A stretch of 64,000 nucleotides of DNA from Chitinophagaceae bacterium. GTDB lineage: Bacteria > Bacteroidota > Bacteroidia > Chitinophagales > Chitinophagaceae. Both the position numbers and the translations under genes were made by a program. How positions within the stretch are numbered: position 1 is the first letter of the stretch; every line of letters starts with the position of its first letter. The notes below the pieces were generated by a model, which saw only the letters and a program-made list of their open reading frames with translations, searched no databases and was not told the DNA's origin. Below are positions 52,883 through 61,994 of the stretch, piece after piece. Where the stretch lies: NCBI GenBank assembly GCA_023957155.1, contig JAMLHK010000010.1, positions 1 to 64,000 of the forward strand. The letters run 5' to 3'.

Positions 52883-52991
52883 ATCAAATGTTTAACGAGA
52901 TAAGGTATGCACCCTTCTCCGGAAATGAGGGTGAAGCGGGGTTTCCAAGGGGAAATTGAATTGGCCGACAGGATATTGGGTTATTCACGCG

Positions 52992-53039
52992 CAAGTTATA
53001 CACTCGTTTTGAGGAATGCAATCACACATTTGGGTGATT
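52992..53039 (-). promoter_or_regulatory. Promoter/operator module, copy 1
   Basis: On the minus strand the dyad AATCAC-CCAAATGT-GTGATT (53020-53039) is followed by TTG (53019-53021), 18 nt and TATAACTTG (52992-53000). It directs transcription towards the S9 fragment. It directly abuts the T-run of the terminator at 53041-53075. Identical architecture is seen at 57,943 and 58,851. Confidence 0.7.
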
Positions 53040-53040
53040 T

Positions 53041-53075
53041 TAAAAAAATGCCCCATAGCTGTAACTATGAGGCAT
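53041..53075 (-). terminator. Intrinsic terminator after the nuclease gene
   Basis: An 11-bp stem (53048-53058 and 53065-53075, one mismatch) around CTGTAA is followed on the minus strand by seven T (53041-53048). It ends transcription of the protease operon or at least of the Rpn-type nuclease gene. Confidence 0.8.
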
Positions 53076-53096
53076 GCCCGATTTATTTTTCAGTAA

Positions 53097-54035
53097 TTAT
53101 TTTTTCTTTTTTAAAGAAGCGCGGATTTTCTTTACAAAGCTTACAGGCATTTCAACAATATCTGCTACCTGCTCATCCGAAAGCCTCATTTTAATGATCA
53201 GGTTTCCAATAACTTCCTGCTTTCCTTTTTCTATACCTTTTTCTATACCTTTTGCTATGCCTTTCTCCATGCCTTTCTCCATGCCTTTTTTCTCTGCAGT
53301 CTTTCTTACCGCATAGTCGGTCCATTTATCTAAAAGCGCTTTTTCGTACAACATATATTCCTCCTTTTTTAGATTGGCTGTTTCAGCTATCTGAAACAAT
53401 TTCTGAAATATCTTCTTGTGTAAAATTACAGGAATTTTTTCCATTTTCGCCATATTGCGCAGCACATACATCCAACGTTCGAGGTCAGTTTTTATTTCCT
53501 TTTCTTCCAGATTGAAATTAGGCAACTCTAAAAATATAAATCCCAGCTTATTATAAAAGGTTTCACCGGTTTTCTCTTCTGCCAGCCTTACGCGGTGCAG
53601 GTACTTATCACTTACCGTTTTTTCAAAGCTGAAATCCATTAACGCTATAAAATACACTTCCTTTAGTTCAAAGTCCCAATTCTTTTCTCCTTTTTGCCCT
53701 TGTTCATATAGTTTGCTCGCAGTATAAAAGATGGTCCGGTCTATGAAAAACCTCTGCTCTGCCCTTTGCATTTCAATAATAAAAGTTTCCCCGTCTATTC
53801 CTGTACAGGTAAGATCAAAAATGGTTTTTCGGTAATGCTGCGCCGGACCACTGTTTTCCTGCGGGTTATATACTATGTCCTTTATGACCTTGCGACCTTT
53901 GAATAATTCATTCAGGAAGGCTATCAGCAAATCCTTGTTTGGTTCGGAGCCGAAAATTCTTTTAAACCCGAAATCCGTGAGTGGATCAATAAAACGGCCA
54001 ATGAATAGCGCGGTGTTTCTTTTGGTGTTTTTCAT
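53097..54035 (-). CDS. Rpn-family PD-(D/E)XK nuclease/putative transposase
   Basis: The 312-residue protein opens with FIDPLTDFGFKRIFGSEPNK and has TIFDLTCTGIDGETFIIEMQ, the Asp...Glu-x-Gln core of the Rpn/PDDEXK_2 family, near residues 70-90. These proteins act in RecA-independent recombination or as abortive-infection-type nucleases. Near residue 255 it carries a run of KGMEKGMEKGIAKGIEKGIE encoded by 12-bp tandem repeats, which is a usual feature of the family and slippage-prone. It is the last gene in the protease operon direction. Confidence 0.88.
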   Translation of the reverse strand: MKNTKRNTALFIGRFIDPLTDFGFKRIFGSEPNKDLLIAFLNELFKGRKVIKDIVYNPQENSGPAQHYRKTIFDLTCTGIDGETFIIEMQRAEQRFFIDRTIFYTASKLYEQGQKGEKNWDFELKEVYFIALMDFSFEKTVSDKYLHRVRLAEEKTGETFYNKLGFIFLELPNFNLEEKEIKTDLERWMYVLRNMAKMEKIPVILHKKIFQKLFQIAETANLKKEEYMLYEKALLDKWTDYAVRKTAEKKGMEKGMEKGIAKGIEKGIEKGKQEVIGNLIIKMRLSDEQVADIVEMPVSFVKKIRASLKKKK

Positions 54036-54078
54036 AACATAAAGATAGGAGGAAAATTTAAATGCATCCCCTAATACG

Positions 54079-55665
54079 TCAGTCCCATTTCAGCCGGATA
54101 TCCGGCGATGGGCATACAGGCACTTTTTTGCAGATGAATGCCAACAGCTCCATCCCTTGTTGATCTTTTTCTGTGGCAGTGGTGTCTTGAGCTTTTACCG
54201 GGCCATCTACCGGAGACGCCACGTTAACCGTGTTGGCTGTTGCTCTTTTTGAAACAGCGGCGAAGCCGGCTTTTAAGAATAAGGGTTGTAGCGTAGTGTT
54301 GTGCGGAACGGCCGGTTTCTTCTTTATATCATTAGATTTCAATACGACTTTCGTTAGCGGCGCTTTCGACAACTCTGGCGAGGCTGTAGCGGTATGCATG
54401 AGTACCCGGGGACTAAAGAAAGTATTGTCTTTTGCCATTATACTCCGGACGCTGTCAGCTTTAACCTTTCTGTTGATCAGCACTTTACTGTTGTTTTGAA
54501 GTGTAGTGTTTATTTCGGGCTTAAGCTCTTGAATGAGCTGACGATTCAGGTGCCACCTGACGGGGGAAGACGGTTTGGGAACCGGTGTTTCAATTTTCAG
54601 ATTTCTTATAAATATCATTTTATCGGGAAAGGCAGGTAATCTTCCTTCTGTTTTTCCATCGGACAATGACACTGCGCCATCCGGTAATTTCCAAAAATGC
54701 TGAAGAAGGAAATCTTTGTAATGAAGCCATTCCCTTATTATTTCTACTACGGTATATTCAAAGGAAATTTTGTTGATATCTATATCCTGAGTACTTATGT
54801 CGAATAAGTCTTTCAATCTCCGGGGCGCCTGCTCTACCAAAGCGGTTACTTCTGCTTTCTCAAGCTTCATTTGCTGCCAGCTTATATTATCTTCAAAAAA
54901 ATTAACCGGCGTAAAATATGTAGGAATATAGTGGAGTTCGTTTGCCAGATGATCTACGGAGCCAGCTTTTGTAAAAAGCTCGTATTCTAACTTCAGATCC
55001 GCTATCATTTTCCCGGGGGAGCTTCCTGAAAGCGACAGGAAATCTCCTAAATATTTTTCTACTTCTGCCCTTTTTCCTAATGTTTCCCAGTTTAATAATG
55101 CGGCGGCAATTGCCTTTTTCAAGTTGGGTTCATCTAACTGGAAAGCTGTTTTTATTTCACTGCCATCGTCTCCCCTCGCATTTAAGGATGCCAACGCTCT
55201 GCTCTTATATTCGCTCAGCGCTTCCTTATACTGATTTTCATAACTATCGTAGTTGGCCAGGCACGTGACGCTTTGCCCGTCAGGCGTTTGGATAAGTTCG
55301 TATAAAAAATCTTTTGCAGCGTTGTACCGTTGTTCTTCCTCCTGGGTACGGGTACTGTTGGCGGCAATAGCGGTTTTTAAGGTTTGATAGTACACATCTT
55401 CCAGCTCATCAGGCGCGGGTGAAATAAAATCATCTACCGCTGTAATAAAATTAAAGCTCCTCGAAAAGTCAACCATCTTTAAGGCGGCGTCAATAGGTCC
55501 AAGCTGATATTTATCCGGTTCAATAAAATAAAAGTTTTCTTTGGAAACGGGGAATGATCCGTTTTGAAAGGAGAGAAATTTATCCGGTAGCTTATTACCT
55601 TCTGCGTCCGTTTCAAAGATTAATTTCAACTTGGTTATTAATGCTATGGCGACGTAAGGTGTCAT
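54079..55665 (-). CDS. Protease-operon protein B: unknown, homologous to its upstream neighbour
   Basis: The 528-residue protein has no signal peptide and no clear membrane helix, so it is probably cytoplasmic. I know no family. It is homologous to the gene upstream through matching segments: PTYFTPVNFFEDN (about 248-260), SFEYTVVEIIREW (301-313), FWKL, IRNLKIE and a final GMELLAFICKKVPVCPSPDI (504-523). Residues 360-500 are a low-complexity Pro/Lys/Thr-rich insertion not found in the neighbour. Genes for both and for the C70 protease are closely packed in one operon (52 bp from the neighbour). Confidence 0.75.
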   Translation of the reverse strand: MTPYVAIALITKLKLIFETDAEGNKLPDKFLSFQNGSFPVSKENFYFIEPDKYQLGPIDAALKMVDFSRSFNFITAVDDFISPAPDELEDVYYQTLKTAIAANSTRTQEEEQRYNAAKDFLYELIQTPDGQSVTCLANYDSYENQYKEALSEYKSRALASLNARGDDGSEIKTAFQLDEPNLKKAIAAALLNWETLGKRAEVEKYLGDFLSLSGSSPGKMIADLKLEYELFTKAGSVDHLANELHYIPTYFTPVNFFEDNISWQQMKLEKAEVTALVEQAPRRLKDLFDISTQDIDINKISFEYTVVEIIREWLHYKDFLLQHFWKLPDGAVSLSDGKTEGRLPAFPDKMIFIRNLKIETPVPKPSSPVRWHLNRQLIQELKPEINTTLQNNSKVLINRKVKADSVRSIMAKDNTFFSPRVLMHTATASPELSKAPLTKVVLKSNDIKKKPAVPHNTTLQPLFLKAGFAAVSKRATANTVNVASPVDGPVKAQDTTATEKDQQGMELLAFICKKVPVCPSPDIRLKWD

Positions 55666-55717
55666 TATTTTTTTTATTAACGTTAAGATCGGGCTTACAC
55701 TTTATTACTCATCAAAT

Positions 55718-57157
55718 TCAATCAAACTTTGCATTCGGGTCGGGATTAGGGCATGTGCCAACAAGCCGGTTTACAAATCCGATCAATTGCATGCCGGGAC
55801 ACTCCAGCCCCTGCCCTGTATCCTTATAATGGAAATCCTGTTTTTCTTCTCCGTGTGAATAACCGCCTTTTACCCGGAACGGCCCCCAGCCCGCATTAGC
55901 GCTGGTATTAAGCTGGCTACGGTAGCTGCTGCTTTCCCAGGCACTTTTGTCAAAAGTTATCTTAAGATTTTTTGCAAAGAGGGCATTGGTAGAATAGGCA
56001 ATAAAAGAACCACGCGGAGGATTGCCGCCATCGGATAGCTGCGGATCGCCGAAAGTCCAGGTGCCGGGGTCCAGTTTCCATCCTCTGCAGGAGAACAACT
56101 CGGTTCCAAACCAGGGCCTTAATATTTTTACCTGGGCCAGGTCAAAACTCATAAGAAAGGTGGAAGTTTGTACACTATTATTAGTCCGCTCGTTAGAGCC
56201 GCTGGCTGATGCTCCTGCACTCCATAAACCCAGATTAATACCTCCACCCGCATTCCATGCATTAGTAGTCTTATCATGGTGGCTGGTATATTCATTTTCT
56301 TTAAAGTAATAATTCTGCCAGCTTTGCTTATAAAAATTAGCGGGAAATAACCTGACAGGATAAAAGCTAAAGTCAATCATAGACTCTGTGAATTTGGCAC
56401 GATCATATATATCACGGAGTTCCGCGAACCAGGAAGCCATACTCCTGCCGGTTACCTGTGCTATATAAGCCTGCATATCTTCTACTTCATTTTTGTAACC
56501 TGCTCCTGTCCATGCATTCATAGCTGCTTTCACCTTGTTGCGGTAAATTGCCGCGTTCACGCTGAAGTCAATCACGGCCTGCTTTTCATCGCTTGTGGCT
56601 GCGTTGATGCGTTTATTGTTATACAATAACGCAGCATCTTCATAGGCCTGCATTTTTTCGTTATATGCCTGTAATACCGGGCCTTCCGCTACCACTGTTT
56701 TTACTTCATCCGTTACCAGGTTCTTTTCTTCTTTGGTGGTATATAACAATTCCTTGAATTTTTTCATTTTGGTTTTTTCGGTTTCAGAAGGCTCCATGTT
56801 GGTTACCTTGGCAAATTTTAAAATATTACCGTAGATATTGCTTAGGCGCTCCTGGCTATTGCGATCCATTGTTTGACTCTGGTCGGCATTATAAATGGCC
56901 TTGGGGTCGGGCACCAGATCGGAAAACATCGCAAAGTCTGCCGATTGCATCACTAATTTTCTGACCTCGTTACCATCTTTGCCATTAAATCCCTTTTCCA
57001 GGAATTCAAAATCGCTATTGCCAAAAGGCATTCCGGGCATTATCCAGGAAATAAAATTATTTTTACTGGCAGGCGCAAATTCGTCTCCACCGGTGACGAT
57101 CTCATTTAACTTCGCCAGCGTGGCTTTCATTAATTCTTCGCTTTTAAAAAGTGCCAT
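55718..57157 (-). CDS. Protease-operon protein A: unknown, Gly/Ser-rich beta segments, CPxPD tail
   Basis: The start at 57157 (MALFKSEELMKATLAKLNEI) avoids a longer leader that would overlap the protease gene. The 479-residue protein has a helical N-terminal half (about 1-260) and a beta-rich C-terminal half. Two Gly/Ser-rich alternating segments (about 302-340, NAGGGINLGLWSAGASASGS, and 418-440) look like amphipathic hairpins. SFDLAQVKILRPWF at 337-350 and the tail GMQLIGFVNRLVGTCPNPDP (455-474) match the next gene. No signal peptide is present. I recognise no family; a pore-forming or self-assembling role is only a guess. Confidence 0.75.
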   Translation of the reverse strand: MALFKSEELMKATLAKLNEIVTGGDEFAPASKNNFISWIMPGMPFGNSDFEFLEKGFNGKDGNEVRKLVMQSADFAMFSDLVPDPKAIYNADQSQTMDRNSQERLSNIYGNILKFAKVTNMEPSETEKTKMKKFKELLYTTKEEKNLVTDEVKTVVAEGPVLQAYNEKMQAYEDAALLYNNKRINAATSDEKQAVIDFSVNAAIYRNKVKAAMNAWTGAGYKNEVEDMQAYIAQVTGRSMASWFAELRDIYDRAKFTESMIDFSFYPVRLFPANFYKQSWQNYYFKENEYTSHHDKTTNAWNAGGGINLGLWSAGASASGSNERTNNSVQTSTFLMSFDLAQVKILRPWFGTELFSCRGWKLDPGTWTFGDPQLSDGGNPPRGSFIAYSTNALFAKNLKITFDKSAWESSSYRSQLNTSANAGWGPFRVKGGYSHGEEKQDFHYKDTGQGLECPGMQLIGFVNRLVGTCPNPDPNAKFD

Positions 57158-57186
57158 GATAATGTTTTTTGAGTTAATAGAATGAT

Positions 57187-57705
57187 TTAGTAGTGCATAA
57201 TCTGAATGTTCCATTCTTCAGCATCTGCCATGGATTCGAACTTTGAAGTGAACGTTTCAAAACTTTCCTGATAAGTGGTGCCCGTCCATGGGTCAATAAT
57301 GTCGAGGAACGTATCGGAGATATCGCCGTTTCCCTGTATGCCTGTCACAATTCTGGCATGTACAGCAAAATTTGCCGAATTATCCTCATCGTCAATTACA
57401 ATAAGAGGACCATAGCTCTGTAGCATTTGTAAAATACTCTCAGGTGTTTCGCAGCGTTGGTACTCAATCTGCATGCCTGTAGCATGGGCAAGGTCGTTCA
57501 TGCGGTCCGCCGCCAGCCCGGTGTTGTCGTCAAATATTTTACGAAAATCGCTACCTAATGAGTCCATAGCTGTTTCTATGGAAAAGCTTTGTTTGTTGTT
57601 CCATGACATGACCATGGTGGTTACCGTAGCCCAGCAAGCCATATTGTAGGGTTGTTGTATTACCGGTATTTCGCCCGGCGCTGTATAGTTTAATGTTTCA
57701 CTCAT
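57187..57705 (-). CDS. Papain-like cysteine protease (C70/AvrRpt2-type)
   Basis: The 172-residue protein has the papain-fold triad: Gln18 and Cys24 in QQPYNMACWA, His116 in FAVHARIVTG and Asp138 in IDPWTGTTYQ. Length and motifs fit the C70/papain-like C39-like group, whose best-known member AvrRpt2 cleaves host proteins. There is no signal peptide, so it works in the cytoplasm or is exported by another route. It is the first gene of an operon with proteins A and B and has a 232-nt leader from the shared promoter module. The natural substrates may be its two neighbours. Confidence 0.82.
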   Translation of the reverse strand: MSETLNYTAPGEIPVIQQPYNMACWATVTTMVMSWNNKQSFSIETAMDSLGSDFRKIFDDNTGLAADRMNDLAHATGMQIEYQRCETPESILQMLQSYGPLIVIDDEDNSANFAVHARIVTGIQGNGDISDTFLDIIDPWTGTTYQESFETFTSKFESMADAEEWNIQIMHY

Positions 57706-57846
57706 TTTCCTTTTTTATTTTAAGGTTGTAGCATATTGTTTACCGGATATCCTGCATAGTTTGGTTACCCGACTCGTGTTTCATGAGCCGTCTCTCAGTG
57801 TTCGTAACTTTTCAGGGATCAGTATTTCGTAAGATATGGACCCATG

Positions 57847-57867
57847 CTATAAGCGGAAAACTTATAG
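57847..57867 (-). promoter_or_regulatory. Leader hairpin before the protease gene
   Basis: CTATAAG at 57847-57853 pairs with CTTATAG at 57861-57867 around a 7-nt loop within the long untranslated leader of the protease operon. The remaining leader has no convincing small ORF. Confidence 0.4.
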
Positions 57868-57942
57868 GTCTTACTGCAATGGGCCGGGCATGTTTCTTTG
57901 AAGGGGTTGAATTAGCGGGTAGGATTTGCTATTATTGAAATG

Positions 57943-57990
57943 CAAGTTATAGTCTCATTTTGGACTATGCAATCACATGTTTGTGTGATT
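57943..57990 (-). promoter_or_regulatory. Promoter/operator module, copy 2 (protease operon)
   Basis: On the minus strand: AATCAC-ACAAACAT-GTGATT (57971-57990), TTG (57970-57972), 18 nt, then TATAACTTG (57943-57951). The dyad touches the -33 region, as expected for control by a response regulator. It is the only promoter candidate before the C70 protease gene. Confidence 0.72.
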
Positions 57991-58104
57991 TTATCGAAAA
58001 GGTTATAGAACGGGTTAGGCTTCCCTTCAAAACAGGGCATTAAAATGTTATGTTTGGCTGATTACAAACCTGCCACACTTAAACAATGCTGCTATGAACA
58101 AAAA

Positions 58105-58132
58105 AGCTATACCTGGTTAAGATAATACCAGG
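58105..58132 (-). terminator. Hairpin with T-run after the response-regulator gene
   Basis: On the minus strand CCTGGT and ACCAGG (58112-58117 and 58127-58132) form a 6-bp stem, followed within a few bases by TTTTTT (58099-58106). It separates the regulator gene from the protease operon promoter. Confidence 0.5.
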
Positions 58133-58207
58133 CCCGGAGGAAAGATAGAAAAGTTGCAGGTTTCTTTCATGTCCGGTGAAGTTCCTCTCTTTTACTTTAT
58201 TTACAAT

Positions 58208-58840
58208 CTACCCGTTTTTTATGATACGGTGTTTCAAGGCTTTTGCCACGGCTTCCCTACCGCTGCAAACCTGCAGTTTGGTATAGATGTTTTTGAGATG
58301 GGTACGTACGGTGTCCAAAGATATAAAACACTCCGACGCAATTTTTTTATACGTATATCCCTGTACCAGTAGTTGCAGGATCTGTCGTTCGCGGTTAGAC
58401 AGGGCAAACTCCCGCCGTGGTTTGGGGTGAAAACTGGTTAAGATTTTTTTTGCCACGCCGGGGCTTACCGGGGCGCAGCCCAGCGTTACATCTTTAATGG
58501 CTTCATACAGTTTTTCGGAGGAAGTGCTTTTGAGCAAATATCCGTCTGCTCCGGCTTCCAGCGACCTGAATATCTTTTCGTCATCATCGAAAACAGTGTG
58601 CATGATCACGCTGATCTCCGGGTTGATCTTCTTTATCTGCTCTACGCCGTAAATGCCATTCTTTTCCGGCATGTCAATGTCCATTAAAACCACATCGGGC
58701 TTAAATTGTAAGATGTCCTGCTCTACCGTGGCGCAGTTGCCCAGTCCGGCTGCCAGCTCCACATCTTTCATGCTGTTCAGCATTAAGCAAAGGGATTCCC
58801 GTAGAATTTCTTTGTCCTCATATATAAATACCCTTAACAT
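58208..58840 (-). CDS. NarL/FixJ-type response regulator
   Basis: The 210-residue protein has a receiver domain with acidic pocket YEDK and phospho-acceptor Asp54 in VVLMDIDMPEKNG, followed by a LuxR-type DNA-binding domain (LSNRERQILQLLVQGYTYKK, ECFISLDTVRTHLKNIYTKL). It is the partner of the adjacent sensor kinase. Its start is only 10 bp from the -7 element of promoter copy 3, so the mRNA is almost leaderless. The shared operators imply that it controls itself and the protease operon. Confidence 0.93.
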   Translation of the reverse strand: MLRVFIYEDKEILRESLCLMLNSMKDVELAAGLGNCATVEQDILQFKPDVVLMDIDMPEKNGIYGVEQIKKINPEISVIMHTVFDDDEKIFRSLEAGADGYLLKSTSSEKLYEAIKDVTLGCAPVSPGVAKKILTSFHPKPRREFALSNRERQILQLLVQGYTYKKIASECFISLDTVRTHLKNIYTKLQVCSGREAVAKALKHRIIKNG

Positions 58841-58850
58841 ATTTGGTATG

Positions 58851-58898
58851 CAAGTTATCTTTCCTCAGCCGGATATACAATCACACATTTGAGTGATT
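58851..58898 (-). promoter_or_regulatory. Promoter/operator module, copy 3 (regulator gene)
   Basis: On the minus strand: AATCAC-TCAAATGT-GTGATT (58879-58898), TTG (58878-58880), 18 nt, then GATAACTTG (58851-58859). The dyad begins immediately after the stop codon of the sensor-kinase gene, so the regulator has its own promoter. Confidence 0.72.
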
Positions 58899-61800
58899 TT
58901 ATAAACGAAGCGAGACCTTTATACAGACGCCTTTTCCTGGTGCGGATATAACCTGGAAATCGCCTTTGCCTGTTTTAGCCCGCCGTTCCATATTATCTAT
59001 GCCATTACCCCGGTTTATCAGTTCGGGGTGAAAACCTCTGCCGTTATCGCTCACTTCAAGTGTTATTGTGTTGAATTCCTTGTAGAGTTTTATAACCGCT
59101 TTCTGTGCGCCCGAGTATTTGGCCAGGTTGTTCACCGCTTCCTTAAAGATAAGATAGAGATGCTGACGGGTGTTGGCATCGGCTATTTCATCGTTGGGTC
59201 GGGTATTGGTTTCAAATGCAAAGTCAATGTTTTGAGCCTCCAGTAATTCGGATGCATATCGTTTCATCCTGCCTATGATGATATCAATCTTGTCGTTTTT
59301 AGGATTAATGCTCCATACAATATCTCTTAATGCAGCGATTACTTCCGAGGTTTGTTCATTTATTTGCTTAAGGTATTTGTTGCGGGTGGCGGCATCCGAT
59401 GTTTTCTGTGAAAGCTGGGAAAGAATATGGATGCTGCTCAGTGAAGCGCCGATGTCATCGTGCAGATTTGCCGAAATGTGTTGTCTCAACCACTCCATCT
59501 TTTTCACCTGTCTTATTTTGTATTGCATCAGGGCGTACACCGTTACGATAATCGTTGCAGCAATCAACAGGTAGAACCACCAGCTTTCAAACCACGGGCG
59601 TGTTATAATAAGCGCCAGTGTAGTGGAAATACTGCCCCTGATCCCGGCATTGTTGGATGCCCGTATATTCATTTGATAACTACCCGGATCTAATTGGGTA
59701 TAGTTGACATAATTCCTGTTGCCGCTCTTTATCCACCCGGTATCAACGCCGGTGAGCATATACTCATAACTGATCTTTTCGCTGTGGGCATTTCCCGGCG
59801 ACTGAAATTCAAAGCCAACAAAATTCTGATTATACGGCAGGGTGATGGCATGAATATAGGGGGTGGCTGTATCGGCTATATAGGGTTTGTTCATTACCGT
59901 TATATTGGTGATCAGCGGTGGCAGCATATCTCGTTGCGTCAATATTTGTTCCGGATCTATCATATTCATCCCGTTAATACCGCCAAACCAAAGCCTGCCT
60001 TTCCTGTCTTTATAGCATGCGGCAGTATTAAATTCCATTGCCTGCAGTCCGTCTTCACCCGTAAATTTTTCACAAATGCCGGTTGTGGGATCCAGCCTGG
60101 CAATGCCGGCATTGCTGCTTACCCAGATCTGTTTACGGCTATCGGCAGCCACGGCATAAATGTAATCATCAGGCAGCCCGTTTCGGGTATTCCATATTTT
60201 CACCACCTGCATAGATGCTGCAAGCGCCTGTATCAAACCATCGTCTGTGGCAATCCATATATACGGATCGCTCAATACAAAATGGCGGGAGGTGGCGGAT
60301 ACTTCCTGTAGTTGGGGATAGATGGTGAAGGAACCGGAGAGGTAGTTGTATTTCACAAGGTTTAACTTTTCCGTGGACATCAGTACGTCACCGCTGTTTG
60401 TTTCCTCCATATATCGTACCCTTAGCAGGTGACGGCTGAGGAACCCGGCAGTATCGGGGCAGGATTCCCAGTGCAGGGTGGCTGGGTTAAAAAGACGAAG
60501 TCCGCCTGCCTGCCCGCCTGTTAAAAGCCGGTTACCTGTTTTGAGCCTGATCACGGCATACAGTTCCCTTGTTTGCTTGTCTGTCGGCTGGAAATATTGT
60601 TTGAATTTTTTAGTGGTTTTGTTAAAGCTGTAAAGCCCCGCCCATGTGGCCATCCATAGCAGATCTTTGTCGCCTGCAATTACCTGGTAGATATTCCTTG
60701 AACCGGTGGCGGTCAGGTTGTTCAGTGGCGGTTGGAAATACCGGCAGTAACCTGTTTTTATATTACGCTGCATGAGACCGCCATATAATGTGCCCGCGTA
60801 AAAGTCTTCATCATTGCCGGAGAAAATGCTGAACAGCATATTGTCATCAGATCTGCCGCCCGCTTTTTCTTCACTTCTCCACAAGCCGAACTTAATGCTT
60901 TGCGGGTCGTATTGCGCCACGCCGCCGCCGCTTAACCCTACCCAGGTAATATGATTGCGGGTAGTATAAAGACTTAGAATAAACCGGCTTTTTAAGTAAT
61001 TGTGGTTGCCGGCTGCCTCGCTGTGTTCCACCACTTTATTCTCCATATTTATCTTCAATAATCCATCGCTGCGGCTGCCTATCCACACGGTGTTGCTGTC
61101 GCTCTGATGAATGATCCGGGGCTCCTGCAAAAGATGGGCAGCGCTATAAACCTTATCAAATGCCGTGTACTTTACCCGGTAATCCATTGCGGTATCAACC
61201 AGTATTATTTTCGAGGCATTTAATATCAGCCATAATTTGTCGCGGATAATTTTGCATTCGGTTATCGTGGCCTTTTGCGGCAAGTGCAATTGGCTGTTGA
61301 GACCAAAGGGAATAAACACTCCGTTTACATACCTGTAAATATCCTTTTCACCTGCCGCGATAATATTTTCGTTGGGTGCAATGCATACCGATATTATTTT
61401 GTCGGGGGCGGTGCCGTTCTGCCACTCCAGGTCTGTCATTTGTTGCCGGCGTTTATCGTAGCAGAAAAGTCCGTCGCTTTGCGTAGTTATCCAGATCTTT
61501 TCGTTTGGGTCTTCAGTAATACCGGTGATATAAGCGTCTTCCGCTATGGCAAAATGGTTGAACCGTGATGCAGGAGGCTGGTAATGGTTCAACACCGGAT
61601 CATATAATAGTATTTCGCTGGTAGTGCCTACCCATAAAAATCCTTTACGGTCGGTATGCAGCGCGGTGATCATTTTTGAGGAAGCCGGTTTGCCATGAGT
61701 CACCGGAGCATTCACCCGCATAAAGCTTTTGCCGTCAAAGCGGTTGAGCCCATCCTGTGTGCCGAACCACATAAACCCTTCAGCCGTTTCCGCAGCGCAG

Positions 61801-61994
61801 TACACACTGTTTTGGGTAAGCCCCTGTGAAGTGGTGAAGGACTGAAAAAAAAGCTGCTGACCCAGTCCGGGTACACCGCACAAAGCAGCCGGCAACACTA
61901 TCGCTACTCTATACAGCCATAGTATATGCAAACGCGGCTTCGGACAAAAGCGACCGGTCATAAAAAGAGAGAATGCTTTATCAAATTTAAACAA
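58899..61994 (-). CDS. Propeller-type sensor histidine kinase
   Basis: The 1031-residue protein has a signal sequence. A periplasmic region of Reg_prop repeats follows (about residues 45-710; typical units include EGFMWFGTQDGLNRF, RKGFLWVGTTSEI, KQIWVSSNAGIARL). A Y_Y_Y domain lies at about 720-795 and a membrane helix at 800-822. The kinase core is HisKA_3 (LHDDIGASLS, His845) plus HATPase (EAVNNLAKYSGAQKA, SDNGRGF). There is no fused receiver or AraC domain, unlike the hybrid glycan sensors of Bacteroidota. It signals to the NarL-type regulator downstream. The ligand is unknown. Confidence 0.92.
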   Translation of the reverse strand: MFKFDKAFSLFMTGRFCPKPRLHILWLYRVAIVLPAALCGVPGLGQQLFFQSFTTSQGLTQNSVYCAAETAEGFMWFGTQDGLNRFDGKSFMRVNAPVTHGKPASSKMITALHTDRKGFLWVGTTSEILLYDPVLNHYQPPASRFNHFAIAEDAYITGITEDPNEKIWITTQSDGLFCYDKRRQQMTDLEWQNGTAPDKIISVCIAPNENIIAAGEKDIYRYVNGVFIPFGLNSQLHLPQKATITECKIIRDKLWLILNASKIILVDTAMDYRVKYTAFDKVYSAAHLLQEPRIIHQSDSNTVWIGSRSDGLLKINMENKVVEHSEAAGNHNYLKSRFILSLYTTRNHITWVGLSGGGVAQYDPQSIKFGLWRSEEKAGGRSDDNMLFSIFSGNDEDFYAGTLYGGLMQRNIKTGYCRYFQPPLNNLTATGSRNIYQVIAGDKDLLWMATWAGLYSFNKTTKKFKQYFQPTDKQTRELYAVIRLKTGNRLLTGGQAGGLRLFNPATLHWESCPDTAGFLSRHLLRVRYMEETNSGDVLMSTEKLNLVKYNYLSGSFTIYPQLQEVSATSRHFVLSDPYIWIATDDGLIQALAASMQVVKIWNTRNGLPDDYIYAVAADSRKQIWVSSNAGIARLDPTTGICEKFTGEDGLQAMEFNTAACYKDRKGRLWFGGINGMNMIDPEQILTQRDMLPPLITNITVMNKPYIADTATPYIHAITLPYNQNFVGFEFQSPGNAHSEKISYEYMLTGVDTGWIKSGNRNYVNYTQLDPGSYQMNIRASNNAGIRGSISTTLALIITRPWFESWWFYLLIAATIIVTVYALMQYKIRQVKKMEWLRQHISANLHDDIGASLSSIHILSQLSQKTSDAATRNKYLKQINEQTSEVIAALRDIVWSINPKNDKIDIIIGRMKRYASELLEAQNIDFAFETNTRPNDEIADANTRQHLYLIFKEAVNNLAKYSGAQKAVIKLYKEFNTITLEVSDNGRGFHPELINRGNGIDNMERRAKTGKGDFQVISAPGKGVCIKVSLRL

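Follow-up and report, generated by a model that had tools for sequence, protein, structure and literature searches.

A 64,000-nucleotide stretch at the start of contig JAMLHK010000010.1 (the window), from the draft genome of a Chitinophagaceae bacterium (4.6 Mb in 26 contigs, 88% complete), carries on its minus strand a row of genes for a papain-like cysteine protease of family C70 and two large proteins, A and B. By their sequences, A and B are paralogues that differ in one consistent respect: A-type proteins contain two segments of fixed spacing, and their B-type partners lack both. Our favoured reading, held with somewhat less than even confidence, is that protease, A and B form one cassette in which A would be the pore former, B a non-inserting partner and the protease their activator by cleavage. 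The original prediction made from this DNA had joined the protease, A, B, an Rpn-type nuclease and a two-component system in one fixed composition. Its unit of protease, A and B, and the unfamiliar families of the latter two, have held up; the Rpn and two-component genes have not done so as fixed parts, and a paralogue bearing candidate hairpins beside a hairpin-less one, with an exchangeable hydrolase, now takes the place of that composition.

Profile searches of Pfam-A, NCBIfam, PHROGs and PADLOC return no significant match to A or B, in line with the earlier statement that both are of unknown function. With E values up to 1 allowed, PADLOC gives nothing for the protease or A and only JetA at 0.033 for B, and solved-structure sequences yield nothing convincing (best E 0.58 with the A sequence, 0.33 with an A-family profile and 0.25 with a B profile). 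The relationship between the two proteins had been missed. Used as a query, A retrieves B at E 1.4e-4, and joint alignments of the two reveal that conserved positions recur in both along the chain and that the C-terminal tails are alike, which is why they are taken as paralogues despite 23.7% identity over 427 aligned positions. The 14-residue tail of A, with its PNPDP motif, comes after the last strand of the structure model, in a region of low confidence. The start of A is probably the ATG at 57157 and not 57214, because the start of the Pedobacter homologue matches it; placed there, the gene does not overlap that of the protease. No signal peptide is visible by eye at the N-termini of A, B or the protease, as had been stated for A and B.

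The wider family was compared at 27 loci, referred to by L numbers (the window with L051, L052, L053, L054, L060, L055–L058, L010, L011, L009, L019, L020, L021 with L059, L041–L046, L022, L032 and L094–L097); L018/L023 and L085, partial matches near E 0.001, were dropped before loci were counted. L051, a Chitinophagaceae bacterium metagenome-assembled genome (MAG), is near-identical to the window stretch (100% across the 159 residues compared). An alignment of 41 sequences, 20 of them A-type and 21 others, separates two classes that were first recognised by eye; it covers the family apart from L032 and the long single-chain proteins of L022, L046, L096 and L097. Two distances distinguish the classes, the first from a conserved Trp to the Arg of an RPW motif and the second from a conserved Asn to the Gln before the tail. 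In all 20 A-type members the first measures 63–68 residues and the second exactly 59, across Gly/Ser-rich alternating segments, against 26–110 and 15–420 residues in 18 B-type proteins. Under a second alignment method every A-type value stays unmoved, while some B-type values shift, two of them from more than 230 to 57; two rhizobial proteins measure 57 by both methods.

The classes also obey a rule of composition. Exactly one A-type member is present in 15 of the 15 loci with at least two confirmed family members, not all of which are independent, because L054 and L060, L010 and L058, and L044 and L045 are close relatives. Five of the six single-sequence loci are A-type, and the sixth, L053, owes its B-type label solely to the omission of its A gene, which is partly masked. 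The B-type genes of L020 and L043, picked by eye, are confirmed by a profile built without them (E 3e-22 and 5e-49). Three genes of L095, likewise first taken by eye as B-type, were rejected, a profile built without them giving a best E of 25 for one and nothing for the others; they belong to a run of four adjacent genes whose N-termini look signal-like by eye (L095:6860-11323), the first of which alone is a supported family member. The proteins of L022, L046, L096 and L097 constitute a long subfamily (720–963 aa), with no second member seen alongside. Just 5′ of the A-type gene of L043 lies a 117-aa open reading frame (ORF; L043:6862-7215) that resembles a piece of an additional family member, because its match (E 1.6e-6) is to the middle of the family profile.

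We infer that the two segments of A are membrane hairpins, for their length is invariant despite low identity, as a barrel of fixed height would require. Alternation of hydrophobicity was taken from 14 of 18 A-type sequences for segment 1 and 18 of 18 for segment 2, two near-duplicates of the 20 having been removed. The averaged zigzag places 46 residues of segment 1 (p 0.004) and 47 of segment 2 (p 0.0013) in runs of at least 8, relative to column shuffles, and does not exceed those shuffles by longest run (p 0.14 and 0.079) or by amplitude (p 0.16 and 0.057). The same Gly/Ser-rich segments could instead be a rigid interaction surface, with A and B forming a secreted or intracellular two-protein complex that serves as an adhesin or binds lipid or wall. 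Such a complex, to which we would give about one chance in five, agrees with the signal-like starts seen by eye in some Pseudomonadota members (L011, L095), which fit an exported use, and with the modules that B-type members may bear: DUF7452 repeats and a PLAT match just short of its threshold (22.8 bits against 23) occur among the partners. It accounts less well than a pore former for the absence of both segments from all 18 B-type partners. In one cyanobacterial B (L056:8647-10983), DUF7452 repeats occupy, in three stretches, the place where A has segment 2.

Structure comparison bears on the same choice. The model of A is weak and includes a helical insertion of about 200 residues within the 479-residue chain. 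Among the 50 matches listed for it, six are gasdermins (ranks 1, 3, 4, 5, 12 and 17), and these alone extend along the model from about residue 10 as far as 472; the remaining 44 listed are confined to residues 91–261, the helical insertion. The gasdermin matches fit a pore former better than a non-pore complex, for which in turn the weakness of the model, and a Foldseek search with it that found no support, can be counted. A structure model of B gave no lead. No gasdermin is found by sequence for A or B in the Pfam scan or among solved-structure sequences, a search made without a profile of bacterial gasdermins, and inspection of the first 20 residues of A (from either start) and B finds no Cys, whereas most bacterial gasdermins conserve one near the N-terminus for palmitoylation. 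Bacterial gasdermins have a pore-forming domain built on a twisted antiparallel beta sheet and a short inhibitory peptide at the C-terminus, which the protease removes; the chain of A ends in its conserved 14-residue tail. The analogy with bacterial gasdermins proposed earlier thus gains weak structural support, together with the caspase-domain and sub-threshold trypsin-like genes of L043 described below, and is not borne out by the N-terminal Cys.

The protease matches PF12385 at 71.8 bits (cut-off 19). Cys24 and His116 are invariant when the window protein is aligned with two Pedobacter and one Sinorhizobium homologues (4 of 4); Asp138, the third catalytic residue named in the original prediction, is kept in 3 of 4, Sinorhizobium being the exception. 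In Pedobacter antarcticus and P. cryoconitis a C70 homologue lies immediately 5′ of A and B on the same strand, so that the three-gene unit recurs in another genus. Identity between the window and Pedobacter proteins is 80% for A, 55% for B and 54–55% for the protease, A being the best conserved. The kinase, regulator and Rpn genes were not seen beside the pair, by eye among ORFs, at the two Pedobacter or two Flavihumibacter loci, and PDDEXK_2 occurs in 1 of 87 neighbouring genes, the window's own Rpn gene. The nuclease and the two-component system were accordingly rejected as core components.

Those 87 near genes come from 24 loci, L055 and L032 lying outside the scan, and were called simply as ORFs of at least 100 aa. 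Pfam finds C70 in 2 of them, those of the window and P. antarcticus; with P. cryoconitis, added by alignment, the protease stands at 3 of the 27 loci. Most members of the family are therefore without it, an outcome that the original prediction had itself named as counting against it, and C70 was rejected as an obligatory partner. The unit thus spans genera, with the protease as one of several partners. Searches with Pfam and NCBIfam within two genes of family members find a partner enzyme at 10 of 27 loci, the three C70 loci counted in. L042 has a muramidase with a peptidoglycan (PG)-binding domain and a TIGR02594 protein; L043 a muramidase and a trypsin-like protein that scores 23.7 bits where the cut-off is 27.6 and, one gene farther out, a caspase-domain protein; L044 a CHAP protein with PG-binding; L056 an Amidase_2 with SH3, and L055 the same genes by ORF comparison; L020 a C92 papain-like amidase encoded on the other strand; and L096 a PG-binding protein that also matches GH19 below threshold. 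At L043 the caspase-domain and trypsin-like genes both lie 5′ of the pair. Cytobacillus has a PG-binding matrixin some 4 kb off, behind other genes that include a reverse transcriptase. For a far control, the scan took in 136 of the 160 genes lying farther out at these loci (nearly all of the 24 omitted reach the end of the fetched stretch); the L043 caspase and the Cytobacillus matrixin fall in this set. PG_binding_1 leads the families near the pair, with 4 of 87 genes, and does not appear in the far-set listing of 25 families, the last of which have 2 members, which leaves it 1 to 2 there, the matrixin included. Compared informally, these counts suggest an enrichment of PG_binding_1 beside the pair.

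Variety of this kind raises the possibility, which we place a step above one in four, that A and B open a membrane and that the hydrolase is the payload, passing through to attack wall or proteins, either those of the producer, with lysis as the result, or those of a neighbour. Pores that serve an enzyme in this way have precedents in perforin with granzymes and holin with endolysin. The enzyme changes from locus to locus while A and B stay constant, PG_binding_1 is the commonest neighbouring family, and the muramidase, CHAP and amidase proteins begin, by eye, without a signal peptide, all of which a payload would explain. Set against this, the window's own enzyme is a protease in which Pfam finds no wall-binding domain, the export of A and B in Bacteroidota would be left unexplained, and 17 of 27 loci have no such enzyme within two genes, a count made on crude ORFs of at least 100 aa, with some contigs ending and L032 unscanned.

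The protease is also common on its own. Of 298 genomes of the order, 23 have it, the window's own among them, and at 26 C70 loci taken with flanks of about 1.5 kb A and B are present at the window's own only. Plasmids of rhizobia and Undibacterium carry a C70-like gene 3′ of very long genes (about 1,270 to more than 1,650 aa, function unassigned; L049:2-5465, L050:2-5465 and L047:659-5369). In L098, a genome of the order, a C70 gene sits between an AAA/ClpV-like gene and a type VI sheath-like gene; these flanking genes, which look by eye like type VI genes, suggest that the L098 protein is a type VI effector. One could imagine from such settings (L047, L049 and L098) that the protease is the toxin, in the manner of AvrRpt2-like effectors, and that A and B deliver or restrain it. 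With C70 at just 3 of 27 loci, and with A, not C70, as the most conserved part of the unit, this seems improbable.

As a whole, the A/B family is rare and patchy, with members in Bacteroidota, Cyanobacteria, Pseudomonadota and Bacillota. A as a single query finds it in 6 of 396 genomes of the order, and an 11-row profile in 8 of 395 genomes of the phylum (own counted in both); the phylum of a cyanobacterial centre has 4 in 146 genomes (centre counted) and that of a Rhizobium centre 3 in 349 (centre and one weak partial match counted). A B-only profile, run over 228 genomes of the order, a sample that may not hold other A carriers, finds the window's own genome alone. A contig scan with a C-terminal profile, based on the single pattern of PNPDP plus four positions and therefore missing loci without such a tail, produced 46 pattern hits and 10 loci. 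Two of these loci are in Chitinophagaceae MAGs (L051 and G325), two each in Flavihumibacter, cyanobacteria and Pedobacter (P. antarcticus and P. cryoconitis), and one each in Cytobacillus citreus and Rhizobium tropici. Among 72,556 plasmid records A is present in 3 and B in none, and A is found in none of 50,697 phage records (E 0.01). A phage origin gains no support from that result or from two viral-contig scans, whose 199 and 33 pattern hits included no relative. Two Flavihumibacter strains have a related protein of 362–388 aa 3′ of the pair (L054:6118-7284 and L060:8886-9974), with no Pfam match and, for the L060 copy, no NCBIfam match; two Rhizobium strains have a similar 242-aa gene 5′ of it (L058:6379-7107 and L010:4735-5463), the L058 copy matching neither library. 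There is perhaps one chance in three that the family is an unrecognised lineage of two-subunit giant pores in at least four phyla, in which one paralogue has two hairpins of fixed length, the other has lost both, and the accompanying hydrolase is interchangeable between protease and murein hydrolase.

In the window itself, all the genes named in the original prediction are found on the minus strand where it had put them, with kinase and regulator adjoining (Table 1). The order of transcription is sensor kinase, LuxR-type regulator, C70 protease, A, B, Rpn/PDDEXK_2 nuclease and a terminator-like site. Like the protease, the nuclease was correctly typed, matching PF12784 at 216.8 bits (cut-off 27.4) and TIGR01784 at 102.1 bits (cut-off 52.1). 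It is possibly co-transcribed with protease, A and B. The end of the Rpn protein also matches the PADLOC profile C3a178 at E 0.00049, and no component of the row counts as fitting a PADLOC model of a known anti-phage defence system.

Table 1. Features of the gene row and its surroundings, with positions in the window
Feature	Position	Strand	Basis or remark
Sensor histidine kinase	58899..61994	-	Pfam: Reg_prop (propeller), Y_Y_Y, HisKA_3, HATPase_c
Operator-like motif copy 1, upstream of response regulator gene	58878..58898	-	Motif scan
LuxR-type response regulator	58208..58840	-	Pfam PF00072 (Response_reg) and PF00196 (GerE)
Operator-like motif copy 2, upstream of protease, A and B genes	57970..57990	-	Motif scan
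C70 papain-like cysteine protease, 172 aa	57187..57705	-	PF12385 Peptidase_C70; Cys24, His116, Asp138
Protein A, 479 aa, A-type (candidate pore-forming) subunit	55718..57157	-	Longest ORF begins at 57214
Candidate membrane hairpin 1 of A, residues ~299-323, absent in B	56189..56263	-	Alternation and spacing; putative membrane role
Candidate membrane hairpin 2 of A, residues ~415-437, absent in B	55847..55915	-	59-residue spacing, 20/20; putative membrane role
Conserved C-terminal tail of A, residues 466-479, PNPDP motif	55721..55762	-	Alignments; B tail similar
Protein B, 528 aa, B-type (hairpin-less) paralogue of A	54079..55665	-	Sequence relationship and spacing
Rpn/PDDEXK_2-type nuclease, outside conserved unit	53097..54035	-	PF12784 and TIGR01784
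Terminator-like site at end of gene row	53048..53075	-	12-pair stem and T run
Operator-like motif copy 3, upstream of 51827-52882 gene	53019..53039	-	Motif scan
Propeller-like ORF past terminator, 351 aa	51827..52882	-	Motif copy 3 upstream; no Pfam family above cut-off

The site at the end of the row, where a terminator had been proposed earlier together with a shared promoter, has a 12-pair stem and a T run; a scan for such sites finds 6 against 11.4 in shuffles, so that only stem length and place favour this one. A sigma-70 scan gives 19 matches against 20.0 in shuffles (sd 4.3), no excess, and a promoter common to protease, A and B would be placed by the operator position and the Bacteroidota promoter consensus.

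A feature additional to that prediction is a near-palindromic, operator-like motif, AATCACNCAAANRTGTGATTG. At up to 3 mismatches the draft genome contains three sites, all exact, on the minus strand and at this locus; the reversed motif has none. In a 20-base form the motif gives 5 rows at those same 3 places in the window, where 0.23 would be expected. Copies 2 and 3 sit in an 87-nucleotide repeat, 74% identical, of which 52956-53042 is one copy. Among 147 genomes of the family, at up to 1 mismatch, the motif is present in 3 including its own, and the single sites of the other two are at chance level, because the reversed control also hits three genomes once each; one of these two sites adjoins, by eye, AraC-type and hemA-like genes. 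It is likely, judging from the placement of the candidate operators, that a dedicated and self-regulated two-component system controls both the cassette and the downstream gene, the propeller-like ORF past the terminator being possibly the third target of the regulator. This ORF, with its repeated promoter region, resembles by eye the lone N-terminal part of a larger enzyme.

Taken together, these elements could operate as follows. The sensor would perceive a signal from outside, whereupon the regulator may bind the three candidate operator sites, and protease, A and B would be made in the cytoplasm, as the lack of a visible signal peptide implies. The protease would then most likely activate the pair by trimming A or B. 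A might oligomerise with or through B and insert its hairpins, the two short amphipathic segments in its beta core refolding for the purpose, as the pore-forming subunit of a large beta-pore of gasdermin-like or cholesterol-dependent cytolysin (CDC)-like type. Without such segments B would be a non-inserting partner, perhaps concerned with binding of the membrane or target, recruitment or restraint. The membrane attacked could be the cell's own, as with bacterial gasdermins, or that of another cell, as with CDC-like toxins, and the outcome would presumably be lysis of the producer or of a neighbour. If such pores are made, they would add a further bacterial route to large beta-pores besides those two, with a built-in division of labour between a subunit that has hairpins and one that has none. 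Gasdermin-like suicide, CDC-like antagonism and perforin–granzyme-like delivery would, if the reading is true, be joined in one gene family. The exchange of partner enzymes among loci makes it possible to ask whether these enzymes switch pores on or travel through them, and the two-component system with its three candidate operators provides a handle on the trigger.

No description of this gene set was found in the literature, as judged mostly from titles and abstract openings; the original prediction knew of no described system of this composition either. The protease shares with peptidase family C70 (AvrRpt2) a PF12385 match above cut-off and the conserved Cys and His, and differs in its setting, next to the genes of A and B and downstream of a two-component system that probably controls it. 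Bacterial gasdermins (PMC9079055 and, for the part drawn on, PMC10989679) offer the likeness of a protease gene next to a candidate beta-pore gene. C70 lies directly 5′ of A in the window and at the two Pedobacter loci, proteases being a minority across the wider family; one relative, L043, has caspase-domain and trypsin-like genes, and gasdermins are the sole whole-length matches to A among those listed. The three bacterial gasdermin chains compared are, however, 240–263 residues long, whereas A has 479 with its modelled insertion, lacks the N-terminal Cys, is paired at multi-gene loci with a hairpin-less paralogue, and is accompanied in the window by C70 in place of a caspase. Structure-cluster work, in the part drawn on here, reports unannotated gasdermin-like clusters (PMC10584675). 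The fungal RCD-1-1 and RCD-1-2 (PMC11760362, also in part) are, like A and B, two related proteins, in their case gasdermin-like, acting as a pair, and differ in being fungal and heteroallelic; the insertion of both RCD-1 subunits is an assumption.

The nearest described analogue is the pair of CDC-like (CDCL) toxins of Bacteroidota. According to the parts of two reports used here (PMC11169675, PMC11952106), CDCLs comprise two related subunits, require proteolytic activation, form a giant beta-barrel pore and occur in several phyla. The same parts state that these toxins were gathered by PF01289, that the analysed pairs have predicted SpII lipoprotein signals, that activation in vivo depends on a C11 protease at the surface of the target strain, and that at least one operon includes an immunity lipoprotein. 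Adjacent genes for two related subunits are common to both systems. A and B, on the other hand, have no PF01289 match in Pfam-A at E values up to 1 and, by eye, no SpII lipoprotein signal at the N-termini of the window proteins, and it is a C70 protease gene that here adjoins the pair.

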